Assembly: GCA_017442085.1 (NCBI GenBank)
Contig: JAFSAW010000054.1
Location: 1-32,041 of the forward strand
Direction: 5' to 3'
Source of the DNA: Oscillospiraceae bacterium
Lineage (GTDB): Bacteria; Bacillota; Clostridia; Oscillospirales; Ruminococcaceae
DNA length: 32,041 nt
The notes beneath the pieces are model-generated. The model was not told the DNA's origin. It worked only from the letters and a program-made list of their open reading frames with translations, and made no database searches. Numbering within the stretch: position 1 is the stretch's first letter; each line of letters starts with the position of its first letter. Made by a program: the position numbers and the translations under genes. Below, one piece after another: positions 2,582 through 29,737 of the stretch.

Positions 2582-3442
2582 ATGTTTGGAAAAAGACCTG
2601 ACGGCAGACAGCTTAAAAGCCTTGAGCCTATGCAGATGATTATGCCGTATATTATGAAAGACCGCCACGACAGTATGAATATGTACGAAGATACATTTCA
2701 GTGCGAGCCGTGGGACAAATACATAAAGGAAAAGGAAGCCGAAGGCCTTAAAATAGGCTATATGCACATTCTTATTGCGGCAATCGTGCGCCTAATTGCA
2801 CTGCGCCCACAGCTTAACCGTTTTTGTATGAACGGAAAAATCTATGCACGCCCTAAAATCTGGGTGAGCTTTGTTGTGCACCCGACACTGCGCGACGAAA
2901 GCGTGGGCACCACCATAAAAATGTGCTTTGAGGGCACCGAAACCATAACCGAAATTGCACAGATGATAAACGAGCGCGTGGCAAAGGAAACTGTTAACCG
3001 CACCGGCGAAAACGACACCGACAAGCTGATGCGCACTTTGATGCACAAAATACCGGGTTTTCTTATCAAGTTTGTTATCAATACACTTATGTGGATGGAC
3101 AAACACAGCATTATGCCAAAGGCGGTTATAGAGCTGAGCCCATTTCACACCTCTTTCTTTATCACCAACCTTAAGTCTCTTGGCATAAACCACATCTACC
3201 ACCACACCTACAACTTTGGCACAACAGGGCTGTTTTTTGCCATGGGCAAGGAAAAGCGCATACCCGTTGTTAAAAACGGAGAAATTGTGCAGGAAAAACA
3301 CATGGGCTTTGGCCTTGTAAGTGACGAACGCTTCTGCGACGGATTGTACTTTGCAAACAGTCTGCGTATGCTGCGTAAATTTATGAAAAATCCTGCTGTG
3401 CTGGAAACACCGCTGGACAAAAAGGCGGAAGACTGTCTGTAA
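2582..3442 (+). CDS. CAT/E2-fold acyltransferase-like protein, catalytic His replaced
   Basis: The 286-residue protein resembles the catalytic domain of 2-oxoacid dehydrogenase E2 and chloramphenicol acetyltransferases, but has no lipoyl or E1/E3-binding domain. Supporting stretches are NGKIYARPKIWVSFVVHPT, VIELSPFHTSFFITNLKSLG, and the C-terminal block FGLVSDERFCDGLYFANSL, which aligns with the E2 DHRVxDG motif. In this alignment the catalytic histidine is a glutamate (DERFCDG), while the Asp-Gly that follows is kept, so ordinary acyl transfer chemistry is doubtful. I chose ATG 2582 because GGGGAG lies just upstream; an in-frame TTG at 2567 lies before that site. It is monocistronic with its own promoter and terminator. 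Substrate unknown. Confidence 0.75.
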   Translation: MFGKRPDGRQLKSLEPMQMIMPYIMKDRHDSMNMYEDTFQCEPWDKYIKEKEAEGLKIGYMHILIAAIVRLIALRPQLNRFCMNGKIYARPKIWVSFVVHPTLRDESVGTTIKMCFEGTETITEIAQMINERVAKETVNRTGENDTDKLMRTLMHKIPGFLIKFVINTLMWMDKHSIMPKAVIELSPFHTSFFITNLKSLGINHIYHHTYNFGTTGLFFAMGKEKRIPVVKNGEIVQEKHMGFGLVSDERFCDGLYFANSLRMLRKFMKNPAVLETPLDKKAEDCL

Positions 3443-3463
3443 GCAGTTGAGTTTAAACCCAAG

Positions 3464-3497
3464 AAAAATCCTCTTTTTTCGAAAAGGGGATTTTTTG
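3464..3497 (+). terminator. Intrinsic terminator after the acyltransferase-like gene
   Basis: AAAAATCC-TCTTTT (3464-3477) pairs with AAAAGGGGATTTTT (3482-3495) around a TTCG tetraloop, followed by a T run. It begins 21 bases after the stop codon. Confidence 0.85.
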
Positions 3498-3604
3498 TAT
3501 TTTTGCAACTGAATATATACTTATTTTCCAACCTTTTTAAACCGCTGGAAATTTTTTCTGTTTTAATATATAGTATATGTATAACAATAAAAGGAGTTTT
3601 AAAA

Positions 3605-4741
3605 GTGAACAATCCTTCCATGCACTGGGCTTCTGTGTGGGGCAACGCTGTTTCTGTTGCTGAAAACAGACCCGAAACCTACTCCAGAAACATTACCCTG
3701 CGCTATCCTATTTATTCTCATTTTGAAGGCGAAGCAGTGCGCCTGACCTTTGACAACTACTGCGGCACCGATGCAATAACTATTGCAAAAACCACAGTTA
3801 TGATAGACAACGATTTTTACACCGTCACCTTTAACGGCGGCGAAAGTGTGACCATACCTGCGGGAGAAAACGCCGTTAGTGACCCGCTGGAATGCCACAT
3901 AAAAGCGCAGCGCACCTTTAATGTAAGCTTTTATCTTAAAGATTTTACACAGATGCGCTCGGTAGTGTTTACAAAAGGGCCGCTGTCTGTGGGCAGCTAT
4001 GCCCTTGGCGACCAGAGTGAAACCATTCTGTTTGATATGAACAAAAGCCGCACCACCCATTATTTTTACTTTTTAAGCAACGTTTCGGTTTATACACAGC
4101 AGAAAAACCGCACAGTTATCTGCTATGGCGACAGCATAACCGCACAGGACTGGCCCGACTATCTTGCCATGCGCTGTATTGACGAGGGACACAAAAACAC
4201 CGCCATTATACGCCGTGCAACCAGCGGCAGCCGCATTCTGCGCCAGTATGACTGTATTGTTTACGAATCCTACGGGCTTAAGGGCGAAAACCGTTTTGGC
4301 CACGAAATCCCCGGCACCGACGGTGCAGACACAGTGCTTATACAGCAGGGCATAAACGACATTATTCACCCTGTAGGCACCGAGGTTAACCCCTACCGCC
4401 CTATGAGCGACCTGCCCACAGTGGAAGAGCTGATTGACGGAATGAAATATTATATAAACCTTGCCCGCAGCTATGGCATGAAGGTTTATGTGGGCACCCT
4501 GCTGCCAATTGAGGGCTGGCGCACCTATGCCCCTTTCCGTGAGGAGATGCGCACCGCTTTCAACAACTGGATACGCACCACCGACCTTATTGACGGCTAT
4601 GTGGATTTTGACAAGGCTTTGTGCGACCCCAATAACCCGACGGCTTTTCTGCCTTATTATGACAGCGGCGACCACCTGCACCCAAGCCCAATGGGCTACA
4701 AGGCAATGGCTGATGCGGTGCTTAAGGAGATAATTGAATAG
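3605..4741 (+). CDS. SGNH/GDSL-type hydrolase with N-terminal beta domain
   Basis: The 378-residue protein ends with a GDSL-like esterase domain: block I VICYGDSITAQDW (nucleophile Ser, about residue 180), block III GINDII (oxyanion Asn), and block V DHLHPSPMGY (catalytic Asp and His). The first ~170 residues look beta-rich and contain no recognised catalytic motif; they resemble the jelly-roll modules often found before GDSL domains of carbohydrate esterases. The GTG at 3605 is preferred over upstream in-frame starts because AAAGGAG sits 7-8 bases before it. No signal peptide is visible with this start, so the enzyme is probably cytosolic. Likely an acyl or acetyl esterase; substrate cannot be read from sequence. 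Confidence 0.88.
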   Translation: MNNPSMHWASVWGNAVSVAENRPETYSRNITLRYPIYSHFEGEAVRLTFDNYCGTDAITIAKTTVMIDNDFYTVTFNGGESVTIPAGENAVSDPLECHIKAQRTFNVSFYLKDFTQMRSVVFTKGPLSVGSYALGDQSETILFDMNKSRTTHYFYFLSNVSVYTQQKNRTVICYGDSITAQDWPDYLAMRCIDEGHKNTAIIRRATSGSRILRQYDCIVYESYGLKGENRFGHEIPGTDGADTVLIQQGINDIIHPVGTEVNPYRPMSDLPTVEELIDGMKYYINLARSYGMKVYVGTLLPIEGWRTYAPFREEMRTAFNNWIRTTDLIDGYVDFDKALCDPNNPTAFLPYYDSGDHLHPSPMGYKAMADAVLKEIIE

Positions 4742-10787: not shown

Positions 10788-11627
10788 ATGCTTTTTCTGA
10801 TAATAGCGATACTGTTCAGCAGCACATTGAGCATACTTATGCGCATAAGCGAAAAATACACAAACAACAACGTAGCTATTCTCGTTGTAAACTATATTGT
10901 ATGCGCTGTAATCACCGCTTTTTCCATTGGTCCCGGCGGATTTGCTGTAAACACCGCGGGACTGGGCAAAACCTTGCTTTATGGTTTTATGGGTGGTGCA
11001 TTTTACCTTGCAGGGTTTGTAATGCTGCAGTTCAACATCACCAAAAACGGTGTTGTACTGCCGTCCACTTTTAACAAGCTCAGCCTGCTTGTTTCCACAG
11101 GATGCTCAATTGTATTTTTTGGCGAAAGACCCAACATAATACAGCTTGCAGGTTTTGCTGTCGCCATCACCGCGATTATCCTTATCAACAGTGAAAAAGC
11201 TTCCGGTACAAAGGCAAACTTTATACTTGGGCTGATACTTCTTATGGTTTCCACAGGGCTTGGAGATACCATGAGCAAACTTTACGAAGAAACCTGCCCG
11301 CCTCAGCTTAGCAATCATTATCTGATCACCACATTTATGACAGCAGGCTTGCTGTGTTGGTTTGTAATGCTTTATTACAAACAGCATATCGGCAAAAAAG
11401 AAATTTTGCTTGGCATCATTATGGGCGTGCCAAACTATTTTTCCTCCAGCCTTGTTCTGCGTGCGCTTTCGCATATGGATGCAATGATTGTATTTCCAAC
11501 ATTCAGCGTAGGCTGCATTTTTGTTGTTGCCATTGCAGGAATTTTCTTTTTTGGAGAAAAACTTTCCAGCCGTCAGTTTCTGTCCCTTGCCATGATAATG
11601 TCTGCCATTGTAATGCTCAATATATAA
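10788..11627 (+). CDS. EamA/DMT-type transporter, first of a tandem pair
   Basis: This 279-residue protein is hydrophobic throughout, with about ten predicted membrane segments and the two-fold internal layout of EamA transporters. Characteristic stretches are LILMRISEKY near the N-terminus, FNITKNGVVLPSTFNKLSLL at the start of segment 4, FFGERPNIIQLAGFAVAITAIILI closing the first half, and FPTFSVGCIFVVAIAGIFFFGEKLSSRQ closing the second. Each half ends with a GE(R/K) motif typical of the superfamily. The ligand is unknown. A close paralogue follows 21 bases later, so the two are co-transcribed and may form a heteromer or serve related substrates. Confidence 0.85.
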   Translation: MLFLIIAILFSSTLSILMRISEKYTNNNVAILVVNYIVCAVITAFSIGPGGFAVNTAGLGKTLLYGFMGGAFYLAGFVMLQFNITKNGVVLPSTFNKLSLLVSTGCSIVFFGERPNIIQLAGFAVAITAIILINSEKASGTKANFILGLILLMVSTGLGDTMSKLYEETCPPQLSNHYLITTFMTAGLLCWFVMLYYKQHIGKKEILLGIIMGVPNYFSSSLVLRALSHMDAMIVFPTFSVGCIFVVAIAGIFFFGEKLSSRQFLSLAMIMSAIVMLNI

Positions 11628-11648: not shown

Positions 11649-12491
11649 ATGATTTATCTTTTAATCGGTATTCTTTTCAGCAGTATGCTTTCCATTCTGC
11701 TTCGCATAAGCGAAAAATATGTAAAGGGCGACACCGCCACCCTTGCAATGAACTATGTGTGCTGCACAGTTGTTGCTTTTTTTGACGCGGGTGCATTAAA
11801 GGTGTTTGCACCTCATGCAGACCTTGATATTGCAGTTATCCTTGGTATTATCGGCGGCTTTGCCTACCTTGGCAGCTTTCTGCTGCTGCAGTACAACATC
11901 AAGGAAAATGGCGTTGTGCTGCCTGCCACATTTATGAAGCTGGGTCTGCTGGTGCCGACAATATCTTCGGTTATTATATTCCGTGAAAGACCGGGCATTG
12001 TGCAGATTGCAGGTTTTGTGCTTGCCATTGCCGCAATTATACTTATCAACAGCGGCAAAAAGGACGACAACCGCAAAGAGCTGAAAATCGGTCTGCTGGT
12101 GCTGCTGCTTATCCTTGCAGGCCTTGGCGATGTTATGAGCAAGTTCCACGAAGAATGGGGCAGCCACGACCTGACCGAAGGATTTTTGTTCTTCATCTTC
12201 CTGACAGCCTGCACCCTGTGCCTTGGTGTAACAGCATACAAAAAACAGAAGATTGGCCTGTGGGAAATTTTCTTTGGTCTGATTATCGGCATACCAAACT
12301 ACTACTCCAGCAAGTTTGTGCTGATAGCTTTAAAAAGCCTGCCCGCCGTTGTTGTGTTTCCAACCTTCAGTGTGGGCTGCATTGTTGTGGTTACACTTGT
12401 GGGTGTGCTGGCATTTAAAGAAAAACTTTCAAAGCGTCAGGGCACCGCTTTGGGTATGATTATGGTTGCACTTGCCATGCTGAATATGTAA
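11649..12491 (+). CDS. EamA/DMT-type transporter, second of a tandem pair
   Basis: The 280-residue protein is collinear with its upstream neighbour: ILFSSMLSILLRISEKY, YNIKENGVVLPATFMKLGLL, FRERPGIVQIAGFVLAIAAIILI, GIPNYYSSKFVLIALKSLP and FPTFSVGCIVVVTLVGVLAFKEKLSKRQ recur at matching places, so the pair arose by tandem duplication. About ten membrane helices are expected. Differences concentrate in the first two loops and in the cytosolic linker after residue 140 (GKKDDNRKELKIG). GGGAG lies before the ATG. The transported compound cannot be named. A strong terminator follows. Confidence 0.85.
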   Translation: MIYLLIGILFSSMLSILLRISEKYVKGDTATLAMNYVCCTVVAFFDAGALKVFAPHADLDIAVILGIIGGFAYLGSFLLLQYNIKENGVVLPATFMKLGLLVPTISSVIIFRERPGIVQIAGFVLAIAAIILINSGKKDDNRKELKIGLLVLLLILAGLGDVMSKFHEEWGSHDLTEGFLFFIFLTACTLCLGVTAYKKQKIGLWEIFFGLIIGIPNYYSSKFVLIALKSLPAVVVFPTFSVGCIVVVTLVGVLAFKEKLSKRQGTALGMIMVALAMLNM

Positions 12492-12833: not shown

Positions 12834-13757
12834 TTGTATTGGGGCAGTGTAAGATTTTTTAAACACCTGATATTGTCCACTGTTGCGCTTATGATTATTG
12901 TGCCTACAGTGCTGGCAATTGTTTTTGGTGTGCAGAATCACAGAAACAAAGCTCTTGTGCAGGAGTATGAAAATCATCTTGCCACCGACGTTTTGCCGCA
13001 GATGGAGTATCTTACGGGTGTTGATTACAGCGAGGTTATAACTGTGCCGACCTACAGCTATCAGGAAGATTATCCCGACCTGTACGTTGAAAAGCCCGAT
13101 GGTTTTGTTGCTGTGGAAAGTGAAAAGCCTGTGGTGTATCTGACCTTTGACGACGGGCCTTCTGCCAACACAGCGACAGTGCTGGACATACTTAAAGCCA
13201 ACAACATCAAGGCAACCTTTTTTGTTGTAAACAACGACATTGAAGAACATCAGCATCTTTACAAAAGAATTGTGGACGAAGGGCACACCCTTGGCATACA
13301 CACCTATACACATCAGTACAACACCATATACAGCTCGGTGGACGCATACCTTGCCGACTTTAACGAACTGTACGAAAAGGTGTACAGCCTTACCGGTGTC
13401 AGACCAACCATATTCCGTTTCCCCGGCGGCAGTATAAACACCTATAACCAGCATATGTATGTTGAACTTATTGCAGAGATGCTGCGCCGTGGGTTTGTTT
13501 ATTACGACTGGAATGTTTCCAGCGGTGACGCAGGTGTGACCTACAGCAGCAGTGCAATAGAAAACGCCGTTTTAAGCGGCATCGGCAGCAAAAGCAAAAG
13601 CATTGTGCTGATGCACGATTCTTCCACCAAGCAGGCAACCGTGGGCGCACTGCAGAATATTATAGATGCCCTTAAAGACACCCACGAATTCCGCGCCCTT
13701 GACAACACCGTGCAGCCTGCAGTGTTCACCTATAAGGACAACGGCGTTGCACAGTAA
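12834..13757 (+). CDS. Membrane-anchored polysaccharide deacetylase (NodB, CE4)
   Basis: The 307-residue protein has one N-terminal membrane segment (residues ~10-33, HLILSTVALMIIVPTVLAIV), a short stalk, and an extracellular NodB domain from about residue 95. CE4 motifs are in order: TFDDGPS (catalytic base and metal Asp), HTYTHQ (metal His pair), FRFPGGSIN (groove), YDWNVSSGD, and LMHDSS (C-terminal His). This is the peptidoglycan N-acetylglucosamine deacetylase class, which confers lysozyme resistance, though substrate is not proven. I take the TTG at 12834: GAGG precedes it by 8 bases and no ATG fits the frame. It sits immediately upstream of a bactofilin, matching a cell-envelope role. 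Confidence 0.92.
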   Translation: MYWGSVRFFKHLILSTVALMIIVPTVLAIVFGVQNHRNKALVQEYENHLATDVLPQMEYLTGVDYSEVITVPTYSYQEDYPDLYVEKPDGFVAVESEKPVVYLTFDDGPSANTATVLDILKANNIKATFFVVNNDIEEHQHLYKRIVDEGHTLGIHTYTHQYNTIYSSVDAYLADFNELYEKVYSLTGVRPTIFRFPGGSINTYNQHMYVELIAEMLRRGFVYYDWNVSSGDAGVTYSSSAIENAVLSGIGSKSKSIVLMHDSSTKQATVGALQNIIDALKDTHEFRALDNTVQPAVFTYKDNGVAQ

Positions 13758-25464: not shown

Positions 25465-25490
25465 AAAAAAGGGGGCATATGCCCCCTTTT
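25465..25490 (-). terminator. Terminator of the glycosidase-like gene
   Basis: A perfect palindrome GGGGGCATATGCCCCC (25471-25486) with a TTTTTT tail on the minus strand, 7 bases after the stop codon. Confidence 0.88.
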
Positions 25491-25496
25491 GCTGTT

Positions 25497-26600
25497 TTAT
25501 TTTACAAAATATCCGTTTGGTGCCTGTGGGTCGGTTTCGGTTTTGCCGTCTGTGTTCCACACCACAATGCGCTCTACGTTTTCGTCCTTTGTCAGTGATG
25601 CAACCGCTGTTTCGCCGTGCAGTGCAAATTCTTCCGCTGTGCCTGCCGCAACTATGTTGGCTGTGCCGTAGCGCTGCGGTGCAACAATGTATTTTGCCAC
25701 ATCGCTGCCGCTGATTGCCGCAACATCAAAAGCAAAGTATGCTTCGCCGCCAACTGCATCCACCTTGCTGGTGAGAGTATTGATAAAGCCCTGCATCTGT
25801 GCCTGAAGCTGTGCATCGTTCACGCCGAAGTCACGCATTTCAAGGCTGTAGCCTGTAGGCAGCTGCACGCCGCTGAAGATAAAGTGCTCAACGCCCATAT
25901 CGCCCAGCTCTTTTGCAAGGTCATAAATATACTGCTGCATAACACTGCTTGCAGGGTTTGCCCAGGGCTTGCCCCCAAGCTCTTTGGAGGTATCCAGCCA
26001 GTTCATATCTGTGCCTTTATATTTTACCGCTGTCTCACGGTTGATTGTCGGTGCAATGCGGTCGTGGAAAGCATACAGCTGTGCTGTAAATTCAACGCCG
26101 TTTTCTTCGCAGATTTTTACAAGGCGTTCAACATCTGCCAATGTGGAAGCCTTTGCCCCGCTGCCGATTTCGGTTTTTGTGTCAAACCACACAAGGCCCT
26201 GTGGGTCTTTAAGGGTTGCCACCACATTGTCCACACCCTTTGCCTTAAGGGCAGCAACTGCTGTTTTAAAGGTTTCTTCGCTGTAAAGTGCGCTTTGTTC
26301 CAGAGCACCGTAGACAAATTTTTCCTTTGTTATGTCAACCTGCACATCGGATGGATTGGCTGTTGGCTGGTTTTCCACCGGTGCGGTAACCGCAGGGGTT
26401 GGGCTTGGTGTGTTCTGCGGCTTTGGCTTTGACATATTGTCTGCCATTTCCATAACTGCAGGGGCACCAAAAAACCCGATAGCCAGCAGTGCACCCAGCG
26501 CAAACACAAGGCTGAGCACCTTTTTGATAACGGTGTTGCGCTGACGGCGCTTGCCCGATATGCTGTTGTTTCGTTTTATTTTGATTGGTCTGTTGGCCAT
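25497..26600 (-). CDS. Exported putative glycoside hydrolase (DUF4015-like)
   Basis: The 367-residue protein has a basic N-terminus (RPIKIKRNNSISGKRRQR), one membrane segment (residues ~28-47, LSLVFALGALLAIGFFGAPA), a Pro/Thr-rich linker (PQNTPSPTPAVTAP), and an extracytoplasmic domain that looks like the TIM-barrel DUF4015 putative glycosidases: VDNVVATLKDPQGLVWFDT, LVKICEENGVEFTAQLYAFHDRIAP, YKGTDMNWLDTSKELGGKPWANPAS and YIYDLAKELGDMGVEHFIFSGVQLP. The catalytic residues are not certain and some homologues may lack activity. It follows the rnfA-like gene by 53 bases on the same strand, so it is probably the last gene of the rpe-rnfDEA operon. Function unproven. Confidence 0.75.
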   Translation of the reverse strand: MANRPIKIKRNNSISGKRRQRNTVIKKVLSLVFALGALLAIGFFGAPAVMEMADNMSKPKPQNTPSPTPAVTAPVENQPTANPSDVQVDITKEKFVYGALEQSALYSEETFKTAVAALKAKGVDNVVATLKDPQGLVWFDTKTEIGSGAKASTLADVERLVKICEENGVEFTAQLYAFHDRIAPTINRETAVKYKGTDMNWLDTSKELGGKPWANPASSVMQQYIYDLAKELGDMGVEHFIFSGVQLPTGYSLEMRDFGVNDAQLQAQMQGFINTLTSKVDAVGGEAYFAFDVAAISGSDVAKYIVAPQRYGTANIVAAGTAEEFALHGETAVASLTKDENVERIVVWNTDGKTETDPQAPNGYFVK

Positions 26601-26653: not shown

Positions 26654-27274
26654 TTAAAGTGCCACTGCGTGGCCTGTAAGCCCGTACACTGCCAGTGCAA
26701 GCACGGAGATGTAGATAAGTGTTATAGGCAGGCCTTTGAATGCCTGTGGTACACGTTCGTGACAGATTTTTTTGTCTGCTTCGCTGATAAGCAGCATTGC
26801 AATAAGATAGCCTATACTGCTGCCAAGGCCGAAAACAATGCTTTCGGCAAGGTTGAGGCCGTAGTTCTGTGTAAGGATAACTGTGCCCACGATGGCACTG
26901 TTGATGCTTGCGCCTGTTACCGACTGCACAATCTCGCGGAATTTGCCGCCGCTGAGAATGATGCTGAGCAGCAGAATAACAATAACATAGCTGACTGCAC
27001 AGGCCACAACAATGATTGTAGGCAGTACAAAACGGCGGTATGCACCAAAGCCAAGTGTGTCAACCAGCGGTGCAGCAAAGTATACAATAACGCTGGTCAT
27101 AAGCTGAAACACTGTCAGGGCACTGCAGAAATAAAATGTGTTTTTACGGGGGTCACGCAGCATTTTGATGCCGGGGCTGATGCCCAGACTGCGTGTGAAG
27201 ATGGCGTTCTGTGCGCCAACCGCAAGAATTGCAAGGTTGAAATAACTAATTATCGTTGTCAGCAAATCGTTCAT
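26654..27274 (-). CDS. RnfA-like membrane protein lacking the cluster cysteines
   Basis: The 206-residue, six-helix protein aligns with RnfA/RsxA/NqrE along its length (same length, same opening, AQNAIFTRSLGIS; ASINSAIVG; SAIVFGL-type segments). In known RnfA the motifs LGxCPFxGV and TNCAVLG each supply a cysteine to the [2Fe-2S] cluster shared with RnfE. Here they read LGISPGI (Ser33) and INSAIVG (Ser126): both cysteines are serines. The start lies inside the rnfE-like gene (29-base overlap). Gene order D-E-A differs from the common C-D-G-E-A-B, and B, C, G are absent nearby. Electron transfer through this subunit by the classical route seems unlikely. Confidence 0.88.
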   Translation of the reverse strand: MNDLLTTIISYFNLAILAVGAQNAIFTRSLGISPGIKMLRDPRKNTFYFCSALTVFQLMTSVIVYFAAPLVDTLGFGAYRRFVLPTIIVVACAVSYVIVILLLSIILSGGKFREIVQSVTGASINSAIVGTVILTQNYGLNLAESIVFGLGSSIGYLIAMLLISEADKKICHERVPQAFKGLPITLIYISVLALAVYGLTGHAVAL

Positions 27275-27917
27275 TATGCATTGCCTCCACTTCTACCTTG
27301 TATTTGTAGTTGTTTACAAACTGTGTCCACACTGCACACAGAATGCCGATGATGAGAAAGCCGCCAAAACTGTTCTGTGCCATTGGAAGCAGCCCCACCT
27401 TTGTGATTGTGATGCCTGCAACTGTGCCGAATGCCAGAAATTCTCTTACCGCACTGATGATAAGGCAGGCAACGACAAAACCTGCGGTGTTTCGCAGACC
27501 ATTGATGATAGAATAAAGAGCCTCTTCTTTTCTTGTCTTTTCAAAGTTCTTTACAACCAGCGGGTCAACGATGAGTATTGGCAGGTATACACCCAGCATA
27601 AGCACCTGGGTGCCAAGATATCTGTACATAAAGTAATATACAAACGCAAATACGATTGCCGACACAAAAGGATAGAAAAATGTTTTGAGCGGCATACTCA
27701 TACGGCGTGTGATGATGCCTGTGACCAGACGTGTTGGTGTAAGCAGGCAAAGCACTGCAATCGACAGCAGCAGGCCGTTTTTTACGGTTGTTGCCGCAAC
27801 CACCAGCGGTGCAAGGGCAAGGCCCTTGATAAAAACAGGGTTGGAGAGAAACACTTTGCGGCGACGCACGGTTTCGTCCCAGTTTTTATAAAGGAGAGAA
27901 TAATTTTTCTGTTTCAT
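27246..27917 (-). CDS. RnfE-like membrane protein lacking the cluster cysteines
   Basis: The 223-residue protein aligns with RnfE/RsxE/NqrD: VFLSNPVFIKGLALAPLVVAATT corresponds to [20 protein letters not shown] of E. coli RsxE, LGVYLPILIVDPLVV to LGIFIPLIVTNCIVV, and VVACLIISAVREFLAFGT to the ...LREIIGNGT segment. At the two ligand positions the cysteines are replaced by Ala36 and Pro119. About six membrane helices are expected, with an extra basic N-terminal stretch (MKQKNYSLLYKNWDETVRRRK). The gene starts 3 bases after the rnfD-like gene and overlaps rnfA-like, so the three are translated together and their products very likely form one complex. Confidence 0.87.
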   Translation of the reverse strand: MKQKNYSLLYKNWDETVRRRKVFLSNPVFIKGLALAPLVVAATTVKNGLLLSIAVLCLLTPTRLVTGIITRRMSMPLKTFFYPFVSAIVFAFVYYFMYRYLGTQVLMLGVYLPILIVDPLVVKNFEKTRKEEALYSIINGLRNTAGFVVACLIISAVREFLAFGTVAGITITKVGLLPMAQNSFGGFLIIGILCAVWTQFVNNYKYKVEVEAMHNERFADNDN

Positions 27918-27920
27918 TTA

Positions 27921-29069
27921 TTATTTCCCGTCCTTTCCCTGATTTTTCATAGCTTCTTCAGCTTTGCGGATTTCTTCCAGACTGATTGTTCTTGTGGAAT
28001 ACAGCACTTCGTCGATATTGTCTTCCGCTTCTCTGATGATATCCATTGTATCCTTTTTAGCCTTGTGGTCGGCTGTGTAAACTTTCTTTTCTTCCTTTGG
28101 CCCGGCATGTTTTTCAGGCATTTTTCCGCGCTGTTTCTTTGCAGCCTTTTCTGCCTTTGCTTCGCCGTTTGCAAAACGTTCGATAGCGCCGTCCATTGTG
28201 TTTACCAGCAGCACTGCAAAGCAGCTGCCGTATTCAAAACCGCCGAAATAGCGGAAAGCCATGCCCAGCACACCCGCCATAATGCCGTAGATAATTTTTG
28301 CCTTTGGATTGCTTGGTGTTGTTGTAGGCTCGTTGAGCATAAACAATGCTGTAAACAGCACTATACCGTTGAGCAGCTCCATCTGCAGACTTTCAATGCG
28401 CGGAAAACCGTAAACCCTTGGGAATGCAAGGGCAATTGCCGCACAGGTTGCAAGGAAAGACACAGGAATGTGCCATGTTATCTTTTTGGTCAGTATAAGG
28501 TAAATACCTATTGCAGCAATAACCAGCACAAAGTCGCTGCCCATGCTGCCAGGGTGGTTGCCCAGCAGCAGATTGAGTGTATCGTGTACAGGTACACCGC
28601 CGCTTTTTACAACGCCCGAAGTTGTAACCGTTGCACCTGTGGTGTAGCCGCTCCAGAAATCAACTTTGCTGAAAGGTGTAACCGCCACAAAAACCTTGTC
28701 CTGCCAGTTTACAGCAGCACAGCACATTGCAAGGGCTGCAAGGTTGAAGGGATAAACGTCCTTGCCGCCAAAAAAGTGTTTGCCCACAAGGACAGTAAGC
28801 AGAACGCTGACCACCACAATATAAACAGGGATATTTACCGGCAGCATAAGGCAGAAGATAACCGCCCCAAGCTCGCTGGAATGGTCGGTGCTGTCAAACT
28901 GTTCGTGTCGCAGCATGGAAACCGCAACGTCCACAGCCTTTGCCGTTATCATTGCAACTGCACACAGCAAAAGCACCCTTGCGCTGTAAAGCACCGTGCC
29001 GCAGAGAATAAGCGGCAAAGTTGCAAAAAGCATATACTTATCGTGATTTTTTCTGTGAATATTTGTCAT
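27921..29069 (-). CDS. RnfD-like membrane protein with long charged C-terminal tail
   Basis: The 382-residue protein has the RnfD/NqrB layout: about eight to ten membrane helices, VGKHFFGGKDVYPFNLAALA (matching the family GKxxFGGLGxNxFNPAL), then a loop with SGYTTGATVTTSGV, where Thr147 of the TGAT core corresponds to the site of covalent FMN attachment, and LLLGNHPGSMGSD (family GxxGSxGE; the Glu is Ser). The acidic residue usually preceding (S/T)GAT is not in the standard place, so flavinylation is uncertain; no ApbE transferase is in the window. After about residue 285 a ~95-residue charged cytosolic tail follows, with probable helices, longer than in ordinary RnfD. It is 20 bases downstream of rpe. 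Confidence 0.87.
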   Translation of the reverse strand: MTNIHRKNHDKYMLFATLPLILCGTVLYSARVLLLCAVAMITAKAVDVAVSMLRHEQFDSTDHSSELGAVIFCLMLPVNIPVYIVVVSVLLTVLVGKHFFGGKDVYPFNLAALAMCCAAVNWQDKVFVAVTPFSKVDFWSGYTTGATVTTSGVVKSGGVPVHDTLNLLLGNHPGSMGSDFVLVIAAIGIYLILTKKITWHIPVSFLATCAAIALAFPRVYGFPRIESLQMELLNGIVLFTALFMLNEPTTTPSNPKAKIIYGIMAGVLGMAFRYFGGFEYGSCFAVLLVNTMDGAIERFANGEAKAEKAAKKQRGKMPEKHAGPKEEKKVYTADHKAKKDTMDIIREAEDNIDEVLYSTRTISLEEIRKAEEAMKNQGKDGK

Positions 29070-29089: not shown

Positions 29090-29737
29090 TTAGATTTTAA
29101 GGCTTTCAATTGCTGCAGCAACATCCTGTGCACCAAACACATAGCTGCCTGCAACCAGCAGGTTTGCGCCTGCCTGTGCACAAAGGCTGCCTGTTGTTTC
29201 GTTGATGCCGCCGTCAACCTCGATGTAAAGGTCATTGAGGCCGCGTTTTGCAGCTTCTTCGCTGATAGCTTTAAGTTTTGGCAGTGCGCTTTCCATAAAG
29301 CTCTGGCCGCCAAAGCCAGGTTCAACACTCATAACAAGCACAAGGTCCAGCTGGTCAAGATATGGGAACACTGCTTCGGCAGGAGTTGCAGGCTTGATAA
29401 CAATGCCTGCCTTTTTGCCGCATTTTTTAATAATATCAATTGTTTCCTGCACATCGCTTTCGCTTTCGATGTGGAAAGAAACCAGGTCTGCACCTGCCTT
29501 GCAGAACTGTTCTGCATAAAGGTGCGGTTTTATTATCATAAGATGCACGTCAAAAAATGCATCGGATTTTTTGCGCAGGGATTTAACCACAGGGATGCCG
29601 ATGGAGATATTTGGCACAAAAACGCCGTCCATAACGTCGATGTGCAGCATATCTGCACCTTTGTCCATAACCATTTTGCAGTCGCGTTCAAGATTTGCAA
29701 AATCTGCAGAAAGAATTGAAGGTGAAACTTTTGTCAT
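29090..29737 (-). CDS. rpe: Ribulose-phosphate 3-epimerase
   Basis: The 215-residue TIM-barrel enzyme interconverts ribulose 5-phosphate and xylulose 5-phosphate in the pentose phosphate pathway. Motifs: SPSILSADFANLE, LHIDVMDGVFVPNISIG (catalytic Asp and metal ligands), DVHLMI, VMSVEPGFGGQSF, and IEVDGGINETTG. Length is typical. AGAGGTAAG precedes the ATG. It is first in a run with rnfD-, rnfE- and rnfA-like genes (20-base gap), an unusual association for which no metabolic link is obvious, and is driven by the promoter at 29865-29893. Confidence 0.97.
   Translation of the reverse strand: MTKVSPSILSADFANLERDCKMVMDKGADMLHIDVMDGVFVPNISIGIPVVKSLRKKSDAFFDVHLMIIKPHLYAEQFCKAGADLVSFHIESESDVQETIDIIKKCGKKAGIVIKPATPAEAVFPYLDQLDLVLVMSVEPGFGGQSFMESALPKLKAISEEAAKRGLNDLYIEVDGGINETTGSLCAQAGANLLVAGSYVFGAQDVAAAIESLKI

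Follow-up and report, generated by a model that had tools for sequence, protein, structure and literature searches.

A stripped Rnf membrane core lacking the known redox ligands is maintained in an order of Clostridia

The Rnf complex, the Na+-translocating NADH:quinone oxidoreductase (Na+-NQR) and a set of NQR/RNF-like clusters are the closest described systems to the genes reported here. Passages of a study of Acetobacterium woodii Rnf describe a reduced [2Fe-2S] cluster that draws Na+ into a site between RnfA and RnfE, a pair that switches access (PMC11889175). Na+-NQR, whose membrane subunits are homologous, is proposed in passages of two studies to have originated from a duplicated rnf operon minus rnfB (PMC4014512, PMC12174285); it keeps the [2Fe-2S] cluster (PMC10643135, in part) and recruited a reductase. 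Which subunits carry the ion is disputed, passages of PMC11889175 assigning this role to RnfA/E and those of PMC10643135 to NqrB. Partial Rnf/NQR gene sets also occur in the flavinylated clusters of Meheust et al. 2021, where the passages concerned describe an NqrB/RnfD-NqrF fusion with a flavinylated partner and one-way electron flow (PMC8238504). Here we analyze contig JAFSAW010000054.1 of an Oscillospiraceae bacterium (assembly GCA_017442085.1), a stretch of 32,041 nucleotides that is the whole contig and is called the window below, which carries an RnfD-, RnfE- and RnfA-like trio in which the cysteines that hold the [2Fe-2S] cluster are replaced. The trio and the residues discussed below, with row counts from the survey described later (DEA marking loci that hold D, E and A only), are as follows:

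29069..27921, minus strand: RnfD/NqrB-like membrane protein, 382 aa; PF03116, E 1.4e-59
27924..28178, minus strand: charged C-terminal tail of the RnfD-like protein, residues 298-382; 85 aa, 21 K+R, 18 D+E
27917..27246, minus strand: RnfE/NqrD-like membrane protein, 223 aa; PF02508, E 9.4e-23; Ala36 and Pro119 in the cysteine columns
27729..27731, minus strand: Arg63 codon of the RnfE-like protein; Asn in 32/33 canonical rows, Arg in 27/27 of the window's DEA branch
27564..27566, minus strand: Asp118 codon of the RnfE-like protein; Asn in 33/33 canonical rows, Asp/Glu in 27/27 of the window's DEA branch
27274..26654, minus strand: RnfA/NqrE-like membrane protein, 206 aa; PF02508, E 9.7e-14; Ser33 and Ser126; Na+-site Asn125 kept

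All three proteins exceed the Pfam cut-offs and are homologous RnfD, RnfE and RnfA subunits in the same relative order as in Rnf, and they miss the corresponding NCBIfam cut-offs (rnfA 57.7 of 229.3 bits, rnfE 55.7 of 213.4, rnfD 135.6 of 207). The genes are tightly packed, with a 3-nt gap between D and E and a 29-nt overlap of E and A. Unlike Rnf, the trio lacks B, C, G and the [2Fe-2S] ligands, and the flavinylation Thr and GxxGE Glu of RnfD are unconserved in its divergent family; unlike Na+-NQR, it has lost the cysteines; and unlike the clusters in the passages of PMC8238504, the divergent loci have no RnfG and the window genome's apbE lies on another contig.

Alignments to solved Rnf and NQR subunits and the family alignment both place Ser33 and Ser126 of the RnfA-like protein and Ala36 and Pro119 of the RnfE-like protein in the four [2Fe-2S] cysteine columns, which bears out the loss proposed in the initial annotation, and the normal Rnf of the same genome identifies the same four columns. 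The possibility raised there that cysteines are conserved at shifted positions found no support, as no replacement set appeared among the alignment columns of the RnfE- and RnfA-like proteins. New cysteine columns at E 151, A 50 and A 92 are conserved only in the window's genus (15/15 each), and a further column, A 91, holds Cys in 19/27 rows of the window's branch and Ala in the window itself; this column survey leads us to reject shifted cysteines as cluster ligands. In the RnfD-like protein the GxxGE Glu, noted at the outset as missing, is replaced by Ser178, and the accompanying claim of a preserved TGAT core proved weaker than stated: the flavinylation column does hold Thr, but within V-T-T, and TGAT lies two residues upstream. 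Apart from the window, only its two nearest relatives have TGAT at this position, and retention of flavinylation through it as a family trait is unsupported. The reported absence of rnfB, rnfC and rnfG held for the whole window, where none was found.

To place these losses in context, loci were gathered by homology and by place, and gene order was read by phmmer (E<=1e-3) from 99 sequences, comprising 97 loci, the window and the canonical contig pair of its own genome. Loci missing D, E or A were set aside (L021, L071, L090, L100, L101, L122 and L127), as were the duplicates L091-L093, and L006 and L007 were merged as one row. The 88 remaining rows, all with D, E and A, comprise 33 Rnf-type rows (31 with all six genes found; canonical below), 18 rows with RnfC, D, E and A (CDEA) and 37 DEA rows, the latter two classes making up 55 divergent rows. 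L132, whose contig is cut, was counted as canonical in residue counts; the absence of RnfC is unjudged in two DEA rows whose contigs start inside or just before D (L023 and L111), and the absence of RnfB is weak in L017 and L070, whose contigs end 216 and 711 bases past A. Eight near-copies were thinned before tree and neighbour counts, leaving 47 divergent rows, and RnfD motif counts rest on 54 readable divergent rows of 55. Residue numbers such as R154, K32, N112, N107 and N52 follow the A. woodii Rnf numbering of PMC11889175.

Loss of the known redox sites from the core is well supported by these sequences. Both RnfE cysteines and the first RnfA cysteine are lost in 55/55 divergent rows, so that the suggestion that relatives might retain the ligands failed for these three; the second RnfA cysteine is lost in 34/55 and kept in 21. 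Thr occupies the RnfD flavinylation column in 9/54 divergent rows versus 32/33 canonical ones, and the GxxGE Glu is found in 2/54 (lost in 52/54) versus 33/33. RnfA residues that contact RnfB have mostly gone from the DEA rows, where R154 is present in 0/37 and E158 is acidic in 1/37, compared with 32/33 and 30/33 canonical rows; RnfA K32 is Lys in 5/55 divergent rows and Lys or Arg in 22/55 (14/37 DEA). Neither RnfG nor RnfB was found by phmmer (E<=1e-3) in any of the 55 divergent loci.

The divergent Rnf core is spread over at least five families of one Clostridia order. A search with the RnfD-like protein matched 93 of 100 relatives, normal RnfD included, and a divergent-RnfA profile matched 282 of 391 genomes of the class with scores that do not split divergent from canonical proteins and give no clean count of spread. 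As to the question raised at the outset whether such homologues always form a D-E-A trio, the 37 DEA rows, which comprise 21 from the window's family (f1), 13 from records named Oscillospiraceae, two from "uncultured Clostridia" and the window itself, do so, and the 18 CDEA rows (f1 11, f24 3, f7 2, f5 1, f15 1) have RnfC in addition. This RnfC is itself eroding, as its 51K/FMN (flavin mononucleotide) domain scores 68 bits in f7, 51 in f15, 30 in f24 and 17-21 in three f1 copies, against 155 in the canonical copy of the window's genome. Both [4Fe-4S] motifs are kept in 16/16 divergent RnfC copies listed while the FMN/NADH domain erodes and their redox partner in the membrane has disappeared (L064, L065, L068, L070, L072-L077, L079, L080, L082, L084, L087 and L090). 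Some RnfE frames are long (L087 6852-8363, L130 6857-8374, L083 7875-9335), with charged Ala/Glu/Pro-rich extensions of ~280-300 residues that are N-terminal in f7 (cysteine-less) and C-terminal in f4 (canonical).

The charged RnfD-like tail noted in the initial annotation is present, and its length varies among these groups: the median is 102 aa in the window's genus, 52 aa in the sister DEA branch, 23 aa in CDEA and 18 aa in canonical RnfD, and 11/12 rows of the window's branch outside the genus have only 14-18 aa. By this comparison the long charged tail is essentially a genus trait. The tail (28178-27924, minus strand) finishes with a genus-conserved stretch around AEDxxDxVxxSTxT that could be a docking motif.

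The slot of the divergent loci has two flanking genes, which in the window are:

29090..29737, minus strand: rpe, ribulose-phosphate 3-epimerase, upstream flank; TIGR01163 above cut-off
25497..26600, minus strand: DUF4015 protein (putative glycoside-hydrolase fold), downstream flank; PF13200, E 5.4e-15

A tree of joined D, E and A sequences, built from the thinned set and eight loci from other families of the class, recovers the 47 divergent rows as one clade (Shimodaira-Hasegawa-like approximate likelihood ratio support 99.3) nested among the order's Rnf operons. Within the clade f7 branches first, then f15, then f5 and f24, then the window's family, where DEA forms one branch (support 81). 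Several divergent branches are long, and the root is only approximate because no single branch sets the outgroup rows apart from the rest. In quick trees of one gene at a time, the divergent clade reappears for E (97) and A (86), and D needs two changes. The closest non-divergent row, L136 of f19 (93; G078:C9:69000-81000, E 3792-4406, A 3209-3865), has six rnf genes, Gly in place of RnfE Cys108 and a first RnfA cysteine displaced by one residue, and this operon is possibly an early intermediate or first step. In f4, a complete rnf operon of L083 is bounded by rpe on one side and a Pfam-recognized DUF4015 gene on the other, the flanks of the divergent loci, and L078 has the same arrangement, its DUF4015 gene being recognized through a weak phmmer match. 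Apart from L124, the normal operons of the window's family fall in another clade that is joined by a locus of a different family (99). The sequences line up as a putative stage series from CDGEAB in the rpe-rnf-DUF4015 slot, through CDEA with an eroding RnfC, to DEA, and the simplest story we infer is that the resident Rnf gave up its redox role once, or as, a second Rnf was filling it.

The D-E-A core is under purifying selection. Ratios of nonsynonymous to synonymous substitution (dN/dS, Nei-Gojobori) in six congeneric pairs are 0.05-0.20 for D, 0.07-0.13 for E and 0.06-0.15 for A, compared with 0.05-0.22 for the window genome's canonical rnf genes against one relative. Of the 15 other genomes of the genus, 14 have a close D homologue and the trio; in the fifteenth, E and A were found but not D. 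Open frames for D, E and A are present in 14 named congeneric loci, and L021, where the contig breaks off, keeps E and A. The earlier argument against decay thus stood, and isolated local decay is rejected by the dN/dS of 0.05-0.20 together with persistence of the trio in genus relatives.

The window's own genome, a 1.9 Mb draft of 123 contigs (83% complete, 6% contaminated), also encodes a normal Rnf with all four cysteines, split between contig C62, which has rnfC-D-G close to its end, and C60, which has rnfE-A-B, and has one apbE on another contig than the trio; a search for both had been proposed at the outset. Both kinds of operon were read in 19/54 genomes with a handle, 18 of them with all six canonical genes, although not all of the others were searched. 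Only the divergent E/A pair was seen in six genomes picked for a single D match; four of them are 82-89% complete, and the other two, both of f7 and both with a cysteine-less pair but no canonical one, are 98% and 95% complete. Because these two near-complete genomes have the divergent form only, the divergent complex need not depend on normal Rnf. One genome, G055 (L123, L124, L125), carries two canonical rnf operons and a DEA trio, and its operon L124 groups with outgroup rows.

As cofactor-holding residues are lost yet selection maintains the complex, it probably does something other than electron transfer. Of the two readings in the initial annotation, a derived complex with a different redox route and a membrane scaffold that turns the Rnf fold to transport or export, we favour the second, without redox, because the [2Fe-2S] ligands, the flavinylation column, the GxxGE Glu, RnfG and RnfB have all gone, as has RnfC in the window's branch. 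Our leading proposal, which we hold tentatively and at somewhat less than an even chance, is a redox-free cation transporter built from the Rnf core, its transport role being suggested by sequence comparison. The trio would represent the D-E-A membrane core of a former Rnf pump whose redox machinery was lost stepwise in one Clostridia lineage, and the retained RnfA/E pair would still gate cations by alternating access, now with no electrons involved. For the window's branch, the cation-binding role of the reduced cluster may have passed to the carboxylate at position 118 of the RnfE-like protein (Asp/Glu), together with RnfA-like Ser33 and Asn125, such that hydroxyl, amide and fixed carboxylate would form a permanent cation site, possibly tuned by Arg63. 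Such a complex could be a redox-independent Na+ or H+ transporter, powered by an ion gradient alone or coupled to a solute that crosses through the RnfD-like subunit. The more specific account, in which a redox pump became a redox-free ion transporter through surviving intermediates and a fixed Asp/Glu (with Arg) replaced the cluster charge at the pseudo-symmetric RnfA/E Na+ site, is rather doubtful.

Several residues are consistent with a retained ion path. The side chain of RnfA N112 helps bind Na+ in A. woodii Rnf (PMC11889175, in part), and this residue is kept in 50/55 divergent rows. RnfA position 25 is Ser or Thr in 37/37 DEA rows, RnfE R67 is basic and E115 acidic in 34/37 DEA rows each (12/18 and 6/18 CDEA), and in the window's branch RnfE N107, which adjoins a lost cysteine and corresponds to Asp118 of the window, is Asp or Glu in 27/27 rows, as canonical N52 (Arg63 of the window) is Arg in 27/27. 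AlphaFold2 monomer models have predicted local distance difference test scores of 67.6 (RnfE-like) and 73.4 (RnfA-like) and match Rnf folds: Foldseek ranks Rnf/NQR chains first for the E model (best 9eri_E, E 1.5e-4, template modelling score 0.69), and the best match of the A model is 9eri_A (E 2.7e-3, template modelling score 0.57), with none below E 0.001.

Other observations weigh against this proposal. The acid has a single origin on the tree: N107 stays Asn in 10/10 sister DEA rows and is acidic in only 1/18 CDEA rows, so this change cannot account for the family as a whole. Arg63 could just pair with Asp118 as glue, and the E model has confidence below 50 at RnfE 113-131, the stretch holding Asp118. 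Passages of PMC11889175 report that T110 of RnfA is needed and that RnfA E88 lies in an ion-pair network with R67-E115; E88 is lost in 37/37 DEA rows, T110 is Ser or Thr in 26/37 DEA but 1/18 CDEA rows, E115 is acidic in only the 6/18 CDEA rows given above, and the RnfA inner gate Leu108 is hydrophobic in only 9/27 window-branch rows (Gly in the window). In the same source, growth was restored in part with N107A and matched that of the wild type with E115A, so that ion sites are not all-or-none. The retention of N112 may be structural, since several Gly/Pro/Ala columns are equally retained. Finally, the pattern [STAG][SGA]A[ST] has matches close to the former flavinylation site in 8/27 window-branch rows (it finds 24/33 canonical rows), and a covalent flavin could for this reason still occur in single members of the branch.

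Among the rivals, a solute permease or channel, in which a flavin-free RnfD-like protein passes a small neutral or charged solute, E and A serve structural or gating roles and the DUF4015 protein acts on a related extracytoplasmic substrate, is in our view unlikely. Transport through the RnfD-like protein is a fair rival nonetheless, because passages of the NQR group's study place the Na+ path in NqrB, an RnfD homologue that closely resembles urea and ammonium transporters (PMC10643135). A DUF4015 homologue in 44/55 divergent loci (30/37 DEA, 14/18 CDEA) would also fit a permease. That link may be synteny, however: DUF4015 flanks canonical rnf in L083 and is not seen in 11/55 divergent loci, some of them cut by contig ends, and besides the flanks no same-strand neighbour recurs in more than 16 of the 47 thinned loci. 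A membrane scaffold or an assembly or regulatory partner without transport, with the RnfD-like tail as a docking arm, seems quite unlikely; the long charged tail with its genus-conserved end and the loss of all known cofactor sites would fit it, but the trio persists outside the genus with the far shorter tails described above, and retention is higher for ion-site residues than for those that contact RnfB.

A third rival is a derived redox complex working with RnfB, RnfC and RnfG supplied by the canonical copy, or with other carriers. It could draw on the co-occurrence of both operons in 19 genomes, the intact [4Fe-4S] motifs of RnfC at the CDEA stage, the apbE of the window's genome and the basic residue at RnfA K32 in 22/55 rows. 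We consider it very unlikely given that every RnfE cluster ligand is gone, RnfA R154 and E158 are lost in DEA, and the two f7 genomes have a cysteine-less pair and lack a canonical one. No reductase was seen as a recurring same-strand neighbour at the 47 thinned loci, nor were NqrA, NqrC or NqrF seen as recurring neighbours there, though no profile search was aimed at these three. The losses of cofactors and subunits do look like erosion, and the long branches could be taken in the same sense, but a decaying remnant without function is barely credible, being contradicted by the selection test, with dN/dS like that of the genome's own canonical rnf, and by the open D, E and A frames of the congeneric loci.

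The stripped core bears on the dispute over ion-carrying subunits: in a natural, selected core that has lost its known redox ligands, ion and electron paths come apart, and the question becomes directly testable. Its intermediates form a ladder that shows how a respiratory pump can be dismantled and put to a different use. If such genes in gut genomes were labelled "Rnf electron transport subunits", the extent of energy conservation by Rnf would be overstated. Among the matches listed from the open-access PubMed Central (PMC) literature on a second, partial, incomplete, cysteine-less or family-specific Rnf, no description of the divergent family was found, and the stripped D-E-A core is, as far as these matches show, a previously undescribed variant within the Rnf/NQR group. 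Strain BL-6 is reported to have Ech and no more than four genes for Rnf subunits, in passages that do not state which four (PMC7764203), and this strain may be a CDEA bearer.

In the window, 20 nt separate rpe from the RnfD-like gene and 53 nt separate the RnfA-like gene from the DUF4015 gene. Because a promoter-like site precedes rpe (29893-29865) and a palindromic terminator-like stem directly follows DUF4015 (25467-25490), both by consensus match only, rpe-D-E-A-DUF4015 may form a single transcript. The upstream flank, rpe, is seen in 51/55 divergent loci, and a strong functional link of the trio to DUF4015 or rpe is weakened, as both also flank canonical rnf in L083. The most frequent other same-strand neighbour is an upstream cluster in 16/47 thinned loci, in some of them histidine-kinase-like by eye. 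Gaps of 600-763 bases separate rpe from D in five DEA loci (L069, L102, L104, L123 and L133), where RnfC remnants were not searched; these are similar in size to a 188-aa opposite-strand gene that lies between rpe and the CDEA genes in L065 (4058-4624, minus strand) and L072 (8510-9076, plus strand).

Elsewhere on the window, an SDR/FabG-like (short-chain dehydrogenase/reductase) protein, recognized by eye, is split between two overlapping frames of 144 and 119 aa (7597-6852, minus strand) that resemble an assembly frameshift or a broken gene. Two neighbouring, similar membrane proteins (10788-11627 and 11649-12491, plus strand) are by eye apparently tandem-duplicated EamA/DMT-type (drug/metabolite) transporters. 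A polysaccharide-deacetylase-like protein (12834-13757, plus strand; by eye) has an N-terminal stretch very similar to that of a counterpart in L007 (120-1127, plus strand); the L007 gene adjoins a normal rnf operon, and that of the window shares its contig with the stripped Rnf. Lastly, a QueG-like protein of 271 aa (31088-30273, minus strand) falls below the QueG cut-off (156 of 200 bits), and its homologues occupy the same place in L008-L013.

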